Of a stretch of DNA of 64,000 bases, positions 23,000 through 32,291 are shown piece after piece. The first letter of the stretch is position 1. Each line of letters starts with the position of its first letter. This DNA is from Micromonospora sp. R77 (lineage in GTDB: Bacteria > Actinomycetota > Actinomycetes > Mycobacteriales > Micromonosporaceae). The translations under genes were made by a program, and so were the position numbers. The stretch spans positions 3,286,001-3,350,000 of the forward strand of contig NZ_JALDST010000001.1 in NCBI RefSeq assembly GCF_022747945.1, written 5' to 3'. The notes below the pieces were generated by a model. That model was given only the letters and a program-made list of their open reading frames with translations. It was not told where the DNA came from and ran no database searches.

Positions 23000-24259
23000 A
23001 TGCCCTTGAACCGCCTGCTGACCCTCGGGGTCGGCGCCTGCACGGCGGTCGCGCTGAGCGTGCCGATCGCCGCCGCGCCGGCCTCGGCCACCCCCTCCCA
23101 CCACCGCACCGGCGGCAGCCTGGTGCTGGTCGGCGGCGCCCTCGCCGACGACAACGCCGAGGTCTACGACGACATCGTCCGGCTCGCCGGTGGACGCGGA
23201 AAGGCCCGGATCGGCATCGTCACCGCCGGTGCCCCGGTCCCCGCCGAGGACCCGGACGCCGACACCCCGGACTGCAACAACAGCGTCTGCAACGGCGACT
23301 ACTACGCGAAGCTGTTCCGCTCCTACGGGGTGGCGGACGCGCAGTGGATCCCGATCGACCTGGACCACCCCGGTGCCGCCGAGGACCCGAAGGTCGTCGC
23401 GCAGATCAACTCGATGAGCGGGTTCTTCTTCGGCGGCGGCGACCAGTACCGGTACGTCACCACGATGACCCGGGGCACGGCCCAGCGGGACTCGGCGGCG
23501 CTGGCCGCGGTGCGGCGGAAGCTGCGCGGCGGCGCGGTCGTCGCGGGCACCAGCGCGGGCGCGCAGATCATGGCCGGCCGGGACATGATCACCGGTGGTT
23601 CCACCGAGCCGGGCCTGCGGGACGGCGCGAAGCCGGGCTACTTCGACGACGCGGACGTGCTCGGCTACCTGCCCAAGGGTGGCTTCGGCTTCTTCACCGC
23701 CGGTCTGCTGGACACCCACTTCTCCCGGCGGGGCCGGGAGGCCCGGTCGATCCGGCTCGCCTCGGACACCCACCACCCGCGCGTCTTCGGCCTGGACGAG
23801 AACACCGCGCTGGAGGTGACCGGGGTCGGCGGTCGCAGCGAGTCGCTGCGGGTGCTCGGCCAGCGCGGGGTCAGCGTGCTCGACCTGCGTCGGGCCCGGG
23901 TGACCGACACCGGCGGCGTCTGGGGCATCGAGGGCGTGCGGTGGAGCCGGCTCACCGCCGGGGACGCCTACCGGGCCAACGGGTGGCGGGTGGTCGTCGC
24001 CGCCGGCAAGGCGCCGGTGACCGCGGTGGACGGTCCGTGCACGGTGCCCGCGTCGGACGACGTCTTCTACGACTACGCGTTGGTCGGCCTCGCCGAAGGG
24101 CTGGCCGGGCAGGCCGGCTGCGCGTCGGTCGGCGGCACGTCGTACGAGAAGGACCCGCAGTGGGCTGCCCGGCTGACCCGGGGGTACGGCTTCGCCGCGT
24201 ACCGGGCGGGGGAGTCGACCACGTTCACCGACGTGGTGATCGGCATCGCCAAGGCGTGA
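23000..24259 (+). CDS. Secreted cyanophycinase-like peptidase (family S51)
   Basis: This encodes 419 residues with a Sec signal peptide (about 1-33, cleavage after ASA). The mature domain carries GGSLVLVGGALADDN, FFFGGGDQYRYV and the nucleophile elbow VVAGTSAGAQIMA with Ser185, then LLDTHFSRRGREARSI. These are the marks of cyanophycinase, a serine exopeptidase that cleaves cyanophycin to beta-Asp-Arg dipeptides. The export signal means it acts outside the cell. ATG 23000 follows GTGAGGAGC. Whether the substrate is cyanophycin or another polymer is unproven. Confidence 0.9.
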   Translation: MPLNRLLTLGVGACTAVALSVPIAAAPASATPSHHRTGGSLVLVGGALADDNAEVYDDIVRLAGGRGKARIGIVTAGAPVPAEDPDADTPDCNNSVCNGDYYAKLFRSYGVADAQWIPIDLDHPGAAEDPKVVAQINSMSGFFFGGGDQYRYVTTMTRGTAQRDSAALAAVRRKLRGGAVVAGTSAGAQIMAGRDMITGGSTEPGLRDGAKPGYFDDADVLGYLPKGGFGFFTAGLLDTHFSRRGREARSIRLASDTHHPRVFGLDENTALEVTGVGGRSESLRVLGQRGVSVLDLRRARVTDTGGVWGIEGVRWSRLTAGDAYRANGWRVVVAAGKAPVTAVDGPCTVPASDDVFYDYALVGLAEGLAGQAGCASVGGTSYEKDPQWAARLTRGYGFAAYRAGESTTFTDVVIGIAKA

Positions 24260-24265
24260 CCGGAG

Positions 24266-24294
24266 GCCGGGCTCCCCGTGTCGGGGAGCCCGGC
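24266..24294 (+). terminator. Terminator after the first S51 gene
   Basis: GCCGGGCTCCCCG and CGGGGAGCCCGGC, perfect 13-bp arms with a 3-nt loop, begin 7 nt after the stop codon. Confidence 0.8.
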
Positions 24295-30349: not shown

Positions 30350-31122
30350 CGACCACCACAGGCGTCCCGATGGTGCACGCCGAGGGCGTCACCAAACGGT
30401 TCGGCCCGCTGGAGGTGCTCAAGGGCATCGACCTGACCGTGGCCCCCGGCGAGGTGAGCTGCCTGCTCGGCCCGTCCGGCTCCGGCAAGTCCACCTTCCT
30501 GCGCTGCATCAACCACCTGGAACGCATCGACGGCGGGCAGCTCTCGGTCGACGGCGAACTGGTCGGCTATCGCCGCCAGGGCGACAAGCTGCACGAGCTG
30601 AAGGCCCGGGAGGTGGCCCGCCGCCGCCGGGACATCGGCATGGTGTTCCAGCGGTTCAACCTCTTCCCGCACCTCACCGCCCTGGGCAACGTCATCGAGG
30701 CCCCCGTCCGGGTGCTCGGTACGCCCCGGGAGAAGGCCCGTGCCGAGGCGCTGCGGCTGCTGGACCGGGTCGGCCTCGCCGAGAAGGCCGGCAACTATCC
30801 GGGCCAGCTCTCCGGCGGCCAGCAGCAGCGGGTGGCGATCGCCCGGGCGCTCGCCATGCACCCGAAGCTGATGCTCTTCGACGAGCCCACCTCGGCGCTC
30901 GACCCGGAACTGGTGGGTGAGGTGCTGGACGTGATGAAGGGTCTCGCGGCCGACGGCATGACCATGGTGGTGGTGACCCACGAGATGGGCTTCGCCCGCG
31001 AGGTCGCCGACTCCGTCGCCTTCCTCGACGGAGGAGTCGTGGTCGAGGCCGGCACCCCGGCCGAGGTGCTCGGCAGCCCCCGGCACGACCGGACCCGCGC
31101 CTTCCTCGACAAGGTGCTCTGA
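30346..31122 (+). CDS. Amino acid ABC transporter ATP-binding protein (GlnQ-like)
   Basis: This 258-residue ATPase has Walker A GPSGSGKST, Q-loop MVFQRFNLFPHLT, signature LSGGQQQRVAIARAL and Walker B LMLFDEPTSALDPE, followed by VVTHEMGFAREVAD, typical of polar-amino-acid importers. It overlaps the permease by 4 nt and shares one base with the ATG of the M20 peptidase (TGATG at 31120-31124), tying uptake to intracellular cleavage. Confidence 0.96.
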   Translation: MTTTTGVPMVHAEGVTKRFGPLEVLKGIDLTVAPGEVSCLLGPSGSGKSTFLRCINHLERIDGGQLSVDGELVGYRRQGDKLHELKAREVARRRRDIGMVFQRFNLFPHLTALGNVIEAPVRVLGTPREKARAEALRLLDRVGLAEKAGNYPGQLSGGQQQRVAIARALAMHPKLMLFDEPTSALDPELVGEVLDVMKGLAADGMTMVVVTHEMGFAREVADSVAFLDGGVVVEAGTPAEVLGSPRHDRTRAFLDKVL

Positions 31123-32291
31123 TGGGTCCGCTGCTGGCGGCCGCCGGGGACCGGCTGGCCGACTACCACGACCGGCTGACCCGGCTGGTCGCGGTGGACT
31201 CCGGCTCCGGCCACGTCGACGGGCTGCGCGCCGCCGCCGACCTGGTGCAGACCTGGTGCCTGGAGGCCGGGATGGCGGTCGAGCGGGAACCGGTCGCCGA
31301 CCCGCGCGGCACCCCGCTCGGCGACGTGCTGGTGGCCCGCCGGCGGGGGACCGGCCGCCGCCGGATCCTGCTGGCCGGTCACCTGGACACCGTGTTCCCG
31401 CCCGGCACGGCCGCCGCCCGGCCGTTCCGGGTGCACGACGGCCGGGCGTACGGGCCGGGGGTCAGCGACGACAAGGGTGGCCTGCTGGCCGGGCTCGCCG
31501 CCGTCGAGGTGCTCGCCGCGCTGGGCCTGCACGGGTACGGCGAACTGGTGCTGGTCTGCACGCCCGACGAGGAGATCGGGTCGACCGGAAGTCGGCCGCT
31601 GCTGCGTACCCTCGGCGCGGCGGCCGACGTGGCACTCTGCCTGGAATGCGCCCGCGACAACGGTGACCTGGTGTCGGCGCGCAAGGGCGTCGCGGACCTG
31701 GAGGTGACCCTGCGGGGCCGGGCCGCGCACGCCGGCATCGAGCCGGAACGCGGCGCGAACGCGCTGCTCGCTGCGGCCCGGCTGACCGTCGCACTGGACG
31801 CGCTCAACGGCCGCTGGCCCGGGGTGACGGTGAACGTCGGGGCGCTGGAGGCCGGTGGCCGGCCCAACGTGGTCGCCGACCGGGCCCGCCTGCTGGTCGA
31901 CCTGCGTGCCTGGCGCAGCGCCGAGTACGAGGCCGCGCTCGCCGAGATCCGCCGGCTGGTCGCCGAGCCGACCGTCTCCGGGGTACGCGCCGAACTGGCC
32001 GTGCACGCCCCCACCCCGCCGTGGGAGCCGGGACCGTCCGGCCGCTGGCTGACCGAGTTGGCGGCCAAGGTCGGCGCCGGCATCGGCGTGCCGGTGTCCC
32101 ACACGGCGACCGGTGGCTGCGCCGACGCGAACCTGCTCGCCGAGGCGGGCGCGGCGGTGCTCGACGGGCTCGGTCCGGTCGGTGGCGACGACCACAGCCC
32201 CACCGAGTGGCTGGACCTGGACTCGGTGGTGCCCCGGGTGGCGCTGCTCGCCGGCCTGATCGACGAGGTCGCCCGCGCCGAGCGGCCCTGA
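31122..32291 (+). CDS. M20-family metallopeptidase (carboxypeptidase G2/ArgE-like)
   Basis: This is a 389-residue zinc peptidase of the M20 family. It has ILLAGHLDTVFPPG (first metal ligand), GVSDDKGG (bridging Asp), CTPDEEIGS (catalytic Glu and ligand), CLECARDNGDLV and the C-terminal GGDDHSPTEWLD ligand His; the dimerisation lid lies at about 185-290. It lacks a signal peptide, so it acts in the cytoplasm on peptides or N-acyl amino acids. Its ATG is fused to the ATPase stop, so it is the last gene of the importer operon and probably splits the imported compound. Confidence 0.92.
   Translation: MGPLLAAAGDRLADYHDRLTRLVAVDSGSGHVDGLRAAADLVQTWCLEAGMAVEREPVADPRGTPLGDVLVARRRGTGRRRILLAGHLDTVFPPGTAAARPFRVHDGRAYGPGVSDDKGGLLAGLAAVEVLAALGLHGYGELVLVCTPDEEIGSTGSRPLLRTLGAAADVALCLECARDNGDLVSARKGVADLEVTLRGRAAHAGIEPERGANALLAAARLTVALDALNGRWPGVTVNVGALEAGGRPNVVADRARLLVDLRAWRSAEYEAALAEIRRLVAEPTVSGVRAELAVHAPTPPWEPGPSGRWLTELAAKVGAGIGVPVSHTATGGCADANLLAEAGAAVLDGLGPVGGDDHSPTEWLDLDSVVPRVALLAGLIDEVARAERP

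Follow-up and report, generated by a model that had tools for sequence, protein, structure and literature searches.

A conserved actinobacterial module of secreted cyanophycinase-like proteins, an amino-acid-type importer and an M20 hydrolase as a probable scavenging system for cyanophycin or a very similar polymer

Do the secreted S51 proteins encoded at one locus of Micromonospora sp. R77 work together with the importer and the hydrolase encoded beside them and, if so, which polymer would such a system exploit? The locus spans positions 23000–32291 of a 64,000-nt stretch of contig NZ_JALDST010000001.1 (the window, in whose positions all coordinates are given unless another genome is named) and carries seven genes, hereafter the module. 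They encode two S51-family proteins (S51a and S51b, the latter with a C-terminal PPC domain), an RpiR-type regulator, the substrate-binding lipoprotein (SBP), permease and ATPase of an ATP-binding cassette (ABC) importer, and an M20 hydrolase. An earlier note on this DNA had listed these genes in the order in which they are indeed found; it did not mention an alkaline phosphatase gene (24427–25686) that lies between the two S51 genes. We propose that the seven genes probably constitute an RpiR-controlled module that scavenges cyanophycin or a very similar β-aspartyl-linked polymer.

The grouping of the seven genes was examined in 121 Micromonosporaceae genomes, the window's own included, and S51b was present in 13 of them, belonging to six genera. 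Strong S51a matches (>350 bits) and close M20 matches (>420 bits) were confined to these same 13 genomes; 13 further genomes gave weak S51 matches of 42–65 bits, and the remaining M20 matches listed did not exceed 181 bits. All seven genes stood together in each of the 12 loci fetched from the other S51b-positive genomes, so that the expectation of jointly conserved neighbours held in 13 of 13. Four gene orders were observed: all seven genes in one direction (four genomes, the window's with the phosphatase gene inserted), S51a divergent from the other six (six genomes), an importer-M20 block and an S51b-RpiR block with an oppositely directed S51a between them (two genomes), and S51a at the end, facing M20 (one genome). 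Since the unit is kept through these changed orders, the grouping is more than chance, and fortuitous proximity was rejected because the linkage survives rearrangement. The module occurs in four of the eight sampled genomes of the window's genus and is therefore accessory.

A wider scan, reduced to one genome per species and with gene presence called at an E value of 1e-20, provided 76 named loci from Micromonospora, Catellatospora, Dactylosporangium, Hamadaea, Streptomyces, Kitasatospora, Streptacidiphilus and Microtetraspora. These loci are not all independent, as four (L102, L105, L108 and L117) come from strains already listed and seven seem to repeat genomes of the family sample. The complete seven-gene set was found in 66 of the 76, with S51a in 69, RpiR in 68, SBP in 74, permease and ATPase in 73 each and M20 in 71; at least five of the ten incomplete loci (L054, L083, L113, L115 and L116) are interrupted by contig ends. 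In most streptomycete loci the SBP, permease, ATPase, M20 and S51a genes are co-directional, in this order, and S51b is divergent, and the other open reading frames flanking a pair of reference loci from streptomycetes were found again in just 1 to 3 of the 76. Moreover, pairwise distances between module genes correlated across the 66 complete loci (rho 0.63–0.90). The S51b match stops by query residue 362 in 13 of the 76 loci, and the PPC domain is therefore optional. A class-wide sample of 296 genomes contained S51b in two and a close M20 in five, which indicates no more than a low frequency of the module among the genomes sampled. In all three class genomes with a close M20 that lacked S51b, the S51a, RpiR, SBP, permease and ATPase genes adjoin M20; as such loci keep the other six genes, S51a, RpiR, the importer and M20 form the core and S51b is a frequent addition. 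Plasmid 2 of Kitasatospora fiedleri (L131) carries S51a, SBP, a permease/ATPase gene, M20 and RpiR, with two S51a-type places, and a homologue search found no S51b on this plasmid. Contigs of Kitasatospora phosalacinea (L071/L105 and L100/L108) hold two S51b-type genes apiece.

The likely action of the S51 proteins was approached through family, fold and residues. S51a (419 aa; 23000–24259, + strand) matched the Pfam Peptidase_S51 model with 29.6 bits (cut-off 23.9), and S51b (25838–27274, + strand, starting at either GTG 25838 or ATG 25844) gave 19.0 bits for S51 and 17.9 bits for PPC, both below the Pfam cut-offs. When a profile of S51a was compared with the PDB, it matched cyanophycinases with an E value of 2.3e-21 and an aspartyl dipeptidase with 0.0065; its predicted structure (predicted local distance difference test score, pLDDT, 84.1; predicted template modelling score, pTM, 0.83) retrieved 7uqv, 3en0 and 7uqw first, with peptidase E far behind. 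The single S51b sequence matched the PDB weakly (7uqv, E 0.12) and a profile was needed, which retrieved the cyanophycinase 7uqv (E 1.7e-5) followed by PPC/collagen-binding domains of collagenases. The S51b model (pLDDT 75.3, pTM 0.58) likewise placed cyanophycinases first and collagen-binding domains next. As judged from these models, the nearest solved structures to the S51 fold of both proteins are cyanophycinases, the model of S51b being the weaker.

According to PMC3235067, CphB has Ser132 and a pocket of Gln101, Asp172, Gln173, Arg178, Arg180 and Arg183, and the secreted CphEal of Pseudomonas alcaligenes has Ser171, His224 and Glu251, with Thr in place of Gln173. The window S51a keeps the full set (Q149, S185, D238, T239, H240, R244, R246, R249 and E267), and S51b keeps the catalytic and pocket residues, with Ser at the Gln173 position and a longer His-to-Glu loop. 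S51a, a predicted secreted CphE-type protein, resembles CphEal, as far as the published CphEal residues (PMC3235067) allow the comparison, in its export leader, 1260-bp gene, Ser-His-Glu set, identical His-to-Glu spacing of 27 and Thr for Gln173, but differs in that the pocket Arg178 is not found in all S51a relatives. Gln149, Ser185, Asp238, Thr239, His240, Arg246 and Arg249 are present in 38 of 38 S51a relatives, and Gln144, Ser173, Asp223, His225, Arg229, Arg231 and Arg234 in 33 of 33 S51b relatives. The genome encodes one further S51 protein elsewhere (L001, G000:C1:1853610-1854149; 83.3 bits).

These residues bear on the alternative that survives best, namely general scavenging of aspartyl or isoaspartyl peptides, for instance from damaged proteins, with the S51 proteins acting like a secreted peptidase E. 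Peptidase E does belong to the S51 family, IaaA and IadA also process peptides from damaged proteins (as described in PMC10206079), and the CphB Arg178 equivalent is not kept by all S51a relatives. We nevertheless regard this explanation as unlikely, since the nearest structures are cyanophycinases rather than peptidase E, the equivalents of Arg180 and Arg183 are invariant in both sets of relatives (38/38 and 33/33), and S51 homologues are found near arginine-catabolism genes.

The latter observation comes from six regions around distant S51 homologues, an unannotated Novosphingobium record being counted among them. In Pseudoalteromonas xiamenensis the S51b homologue (29% identity) stands beside a second protein annotated as cyanophycinase (33% identical to S51a in an alignment of 184 columns), a TonB receptor, the basic amino-acid antiporter YfcC and iadA, and in Pseudoalteromonas shioyasakiensis an arginase and an SBP are encoded near the S51 homologue. 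The annotated, plasmid-encoded cyanophycinase WP_029325168.1 of Priestia megaterium, 30% identical to S51b over 347 columns, has aspA adjacent; unlike the module S51b, its match is without PPC and no importer, M20 or RpiR gene adjoins it. An extracellular cyanophycinase, perhaps a different protein, has been characterised from B. megaterium BAC19 (PMC3235067). The archaeon Natronosalvus amylolyticus has an S51a homologue of 28% identity, and its plasmid (L133) carries two cyanophycinases, an M28 peptidase, ABC importer genes, an agmatinase and a glutamate dehydrogenase, in a look-alike scavenging locus. Judging by their gene neighbourhoods, four of the six regions point to an Asp- and Arg-yielding polymer.

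Complete use of cyanophycin would then call for an enzyme that splits β-Asp-Arg, and dipeptidase families were searched as PF01112 (IaaA), TIGR01975 (IadA) and PF24827 (CphZ-type), all controls, E. coli included, being matched. None of the 13 family genomes with the module contained IaaA, IadA over cut-off (partial matches of at most 25.3 bits in 12) or a CphZ-type enzyme; IaaA, the one family for which the search was extended, was absent as well from another 20 genomes with the module (17 from Streptomyces). With no recognisable IaaA, IadA or CphZ-type enzyme in the 13 genomes, the M20 hydrolase (31122–32291, + strand) is the obvious candidate for β-Asp-Arg splitting. Furthermore, cphA1 exceeded its cut-off in two of the 13 genomes, both Dactylosporangium, the other 11 having no match over cut-off, and the two cphA1-bearing genomes also lacked IaaA, IadA over cut-off and the CphZ-type enzyme; in the survey of PMC10206079, each of the 35 cphA1-bearing Actinomycetota had IadA and/or IaaA. 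Both Dactylosporangium genomes have, in addition to the module, a separate S51 gene next to cphA1 (G044:C21:9326-12752 and G081:C64:23743-27154). The cphA1 match at G090:C1:819879-822284 is split into two pieces, perhaps because the gene is broken or gapped.

The nearest solved structure to M20 was carboxypeptidase G2 (E 1.5e-49), and the poly(aspartic acid) hydrolase 7ljh was a weak match (E 3e-7). In an alignment of 23 M20 sequences chosen among 120 listed, the metal ligands and the catalytic Glu were kept in 23 of 23, their positions being assigned through the M20 metal-ligand list and the carboxypeptidase G2 alignment; the equivalents of His229, Asn275 and Arg288 of carboxypeptidase G2 were kept in 23 of 23 as well. 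Unlike carboxypeptidase G2, none of the 23 has an Arg324 equivalent (Thr in 19, Ala in three and Met in one), and Arg178, Asn180, Asp182 and Arg187 are invariant instead. Because this substrate-binding Arg is lost throughout, the identification of M20 as a carboxypeptidase G2 was rejected. PMC6271292 describes the Arg of PepV and PepD that superimposes on Arg324 as a putative substrate-binding residue that PepD cannot do without, and M20 carnosinases are reported to cleave β-alanyl-histidine; given that activity, a β-linked dipeptide is a plausible M20 substrate.

The same architecture might instead serve another polyamino acid, such as a Lys-rich cyanophycin relative or polyaspartate. The top structure match of S51a, 7uqv, is a pseudo-CphB, and an M20-family poly(aspartic acid) hydrolase is indeed among the M20 matches. 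This option appears rather improbable, somewhat more so than peptide scavenging, as the 7ljh match is weak beside that of carboxypeptidase G2 and the agmatinase and arginase encoded next to S51a homologues indicate Arg.

Whether the genes share a control region was addressed through half-sites of the type TGTAAC/GTTACA, which occur upstream of both S51b and SBP. Two operator-like palindromes, 39 bp apart, precede S51b (25762–25777 and 25801–25816), and a GTTACA-N6-TGTAAC site (28291–28308) and a further palindrome (28320–28335) precede SBP. With at most one mismatch, the 16-bp palindrome TGTAAYNNNNRTTACA matches the three operator-like palindromes (25762–25777, 25801–25816 and 28320–28335), and no other place, in the 7.14-Mb genome, where the reversed pattern, used as a control, has one match; since the motif was itself derived from this locus, what counts is its absence elsewhere. 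In the 13 family loci, 54 of 60 half-sites fall in module gaps or within 400 bases of the module ends, and none within the seven genes. A half-site is located at most 420 bases upstream of S51b in 68 of the 76 named loci, compared with 5.5 of 76 for dinucleotide shuffles, and the half-site density is 3.46 per kb upstream of S51b versus 0.065 elsewhere in the same loci. Upstream of SBP a half-site is present in 66 of 74 loci, a count that, for divergently arranged genes, overlaps that of S51b. Half-sites of the same orientation are most often spaced 39 bp apart, and the three S51b-less loci have single half-sites near SBP, RpiR or S51a. The regulator (27381–28274, + strand) has the HTH_6 (42.9 bits) and SIS (48.3 bits) domains of the RpiR/MurR type, each over cut-off, and from its position we infer that RpiR is the binder of these sites. 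The proposal of the earlier note that the S51 enzymes, the importer and M20 form one candidate scavenging system thus draws support, at the level of sequence, from conservation, a shared operator type and the S51 residues.

These data also weigh on the possibility of separate substrates, with an importer for Arg or another amino acid, an M20 acting as carboxypeptidase or aminoacylase, and S51 proteins that are mere neighbours. The NCBIfam models nearest to SBP are lysine/arginine/ornithine binding proteins, under cut-off, and M20 is closest to carboxypeptidase G2; however, the linkage of S51 to importer-M20 survives rearrangements, most streptomycete loci have S51a downstream of M20 and co-directional with it, operator-like sites are common to S51b and the importer, Arg324 is lost in M20, and known CphEs release dipeptides (PMC3235067), so that we consider this explanation very unlikely. 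An antibiotic-resistance reading modelled on MccG was set aside, as the MccG substrate described in PMC9239234 is an isoaspartyl-nucleotide released intracellularly and the S51 proteins have export leaders.

Several observations weigh against a cyanophycin-scavenging module. Neither S51a (100.5 bits) nor S51b (42.7 bits) reaches the TIGR02069 cut-off of 126.6 bits, and they are therefore termed cyanophycinase-like rather than equivalog members; plasmid proteins annotated as cyanophycinase from Priestia (75.6 bits) and Pseudoalteromonas (74.6 bits) also remain below it. Among 38 relatives of S51a, only 20 have Arg at the position of Arg244 (CphB Arg178) and 30 have Glu at that of Glu267, and in S51b the position of Glu260, aligned with the triad Glu of CphB, is Glu in 29 of 33 and Gln in four; the S51b model, in addition, is of low confidence around the catalytic Ser. 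No operator-like half-site was found in the sequence upstream of S51a in this genome, and operator control of S51a here was rejected for that reason; the S51a/S51b gap holds half-sites in several other genera. On the streptomycete side RpiR co-varies weakly with the rest (rho 0.15–0.40); several rpiR genes are often found nearby there, and the one matched best may not be that of the module. RpiR/SIS regulators usually sense sugar phosphates. Finally, the absence of dipeptidases was counted in module genomes only, and the annotated neighbourhood of the Cytobacillus spongiae homologue is without supporting neighbours.

Taking both sides together, we continue to favour a module for cyanophycin or a very similar polymer. 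In the mechanism that we infer, from the identity of the polymer to dipeptide transport, M20 specificity and the binding and ligand of RpiR, secreted S51a and S51b would cleave the poly-Asp backbone extracellularly, thereby releasing β-Asp-Arg-type dipeptides, and the PPC domain may anchor S51b to the polymer. The lipoprotein-permease-ATPase importer would carry these dipeptides into the cell, where cytosolic M20 would split them into Asp and Arg. The TGTAAC/GTTACA sites in the promoter regions of S51b and of the importer would be bound by RpiR, which would respond to a polymer-derived ligand.

The layout of the window locus was analysed with respect to this scheme. All eight genes, the seven of the module and that of the phosphatase, are on the + strand. 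SBP (28379–29323; SBP_bac_3, amino-acid/opine class), a single HEQRo-type permease (29495–30349; TIGR01726 68.5 bits, cut-off 42.2) and the ATPase (30346–31122; recognised by Pfam and NCBIfam models) form an ABC importer of the polar amino acid type. The ATPase start overlaps the permease stop (ATGA) and the M20 start overlaps the ATPase stop (TGATG), and M20 is therefore part of the importer operon. S51b and rpiR are separated by a terminator-like inverted repeat (27283–27340; 26-nt arms, 96% complementary), and SBP is preceded by a region of its own that contains operator-like sites; the whole span is therefore probably more than one transcript. Hydrophobic leaders were read from the sequences of S51a, S51b and SBP (the last with a lipobox-like LAATAAC), and none was seen in M20. 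Between the SBP and permease genes lies a perfect 16-nt inverted repeat (29350–29410), which perhaps tunes SBP expression over that of the permease. The alkaline phosphatase (PF00245, 276.9 bits) was rejected as a module member, being present in none of the 12 other Micromonosporaceae loci and in one of the 76 named loci, that of Micromonospora mirobrigensis (L047), where it adjoins S51a. A C39-like peptidase (PF13529, 67 bits) is encoded directly downstream on the − strand (32367–33230).

How far is such a module new? The earlier note had regarded a dedicated, regulated uptake module as new to it, which is too strong, as secreted CphE cyanophycinases (PMC3235067) and loci combining cyanophycinase, iadA and transporter genes are already in print, the latter as cyanophycin utilization loci (Ben Hania et al., cited in PMC10206079). 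In PMC10206079, 45 of the 52 genomes that lack cphA1 are reported to have their cyanophycinase and dipeptidase genes in a cluster, and the dipeptidases of Firmicutes and Bacteroidota are described as still undiscovered. Elsewhere, acI actinobacteria have been said to hold a cyanophycinase (PMC5574706), and the diversity of S51 proteins in Streptomyces has been noted (PMC11078827). No account of this actinobacterial module was found in the open-access literature searched. Because scavenging loci with cyanophycinase and transporter are published, the new parts are the M20 step and RpiR control. Like a cyanophycin utilization locus, the module has cyanophycinase-like genes, a transporter and a candidate dipeptide enzyme, and 11 of the 13 genomes have no cphA1 over cut-off; unlike one, it is without iadA or iaaA and has M20, RpiR, two secreted S51 proteins and an amino-acid-type ABC importer. 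By analogy, it would work like such a locus, with M20 replacing the isoaspartyl dipeptidase, and we do not class it as one.

A broader proposal can be advanced tentatively, as one that we rate a little below even. M20 may represent yet another class of enzyme, unrelated to IadA, IaaA and CphZ, that hydrolyses the cyanophycin dipeptide, and the signal for the RpiR/SIS regulator may be the imported dipeptide or its product instead of a sugar phosphate. At least eight genera of soil actinobacteria would then be dedicated scavengers of the cyanophycin of others, and in the two cphA1-bearing Dactylosporangium genomes M20 would also serve their own cyanophycin. The M20 hydrolase, whose gene is conserved alongside those of secreted cyanophycinase-like proteins, is a candidate new dipeptidase that can be tested directly. 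If the proposal is true, it would raise a fresh question about the ligands of RpiR regulators, the conversion of cyanophycin to dipeptides would gain a hydrolase as well as secreted enzymes, and Streptomyces and Micromonospora would recycle cyanophycin nitrogen in soil.

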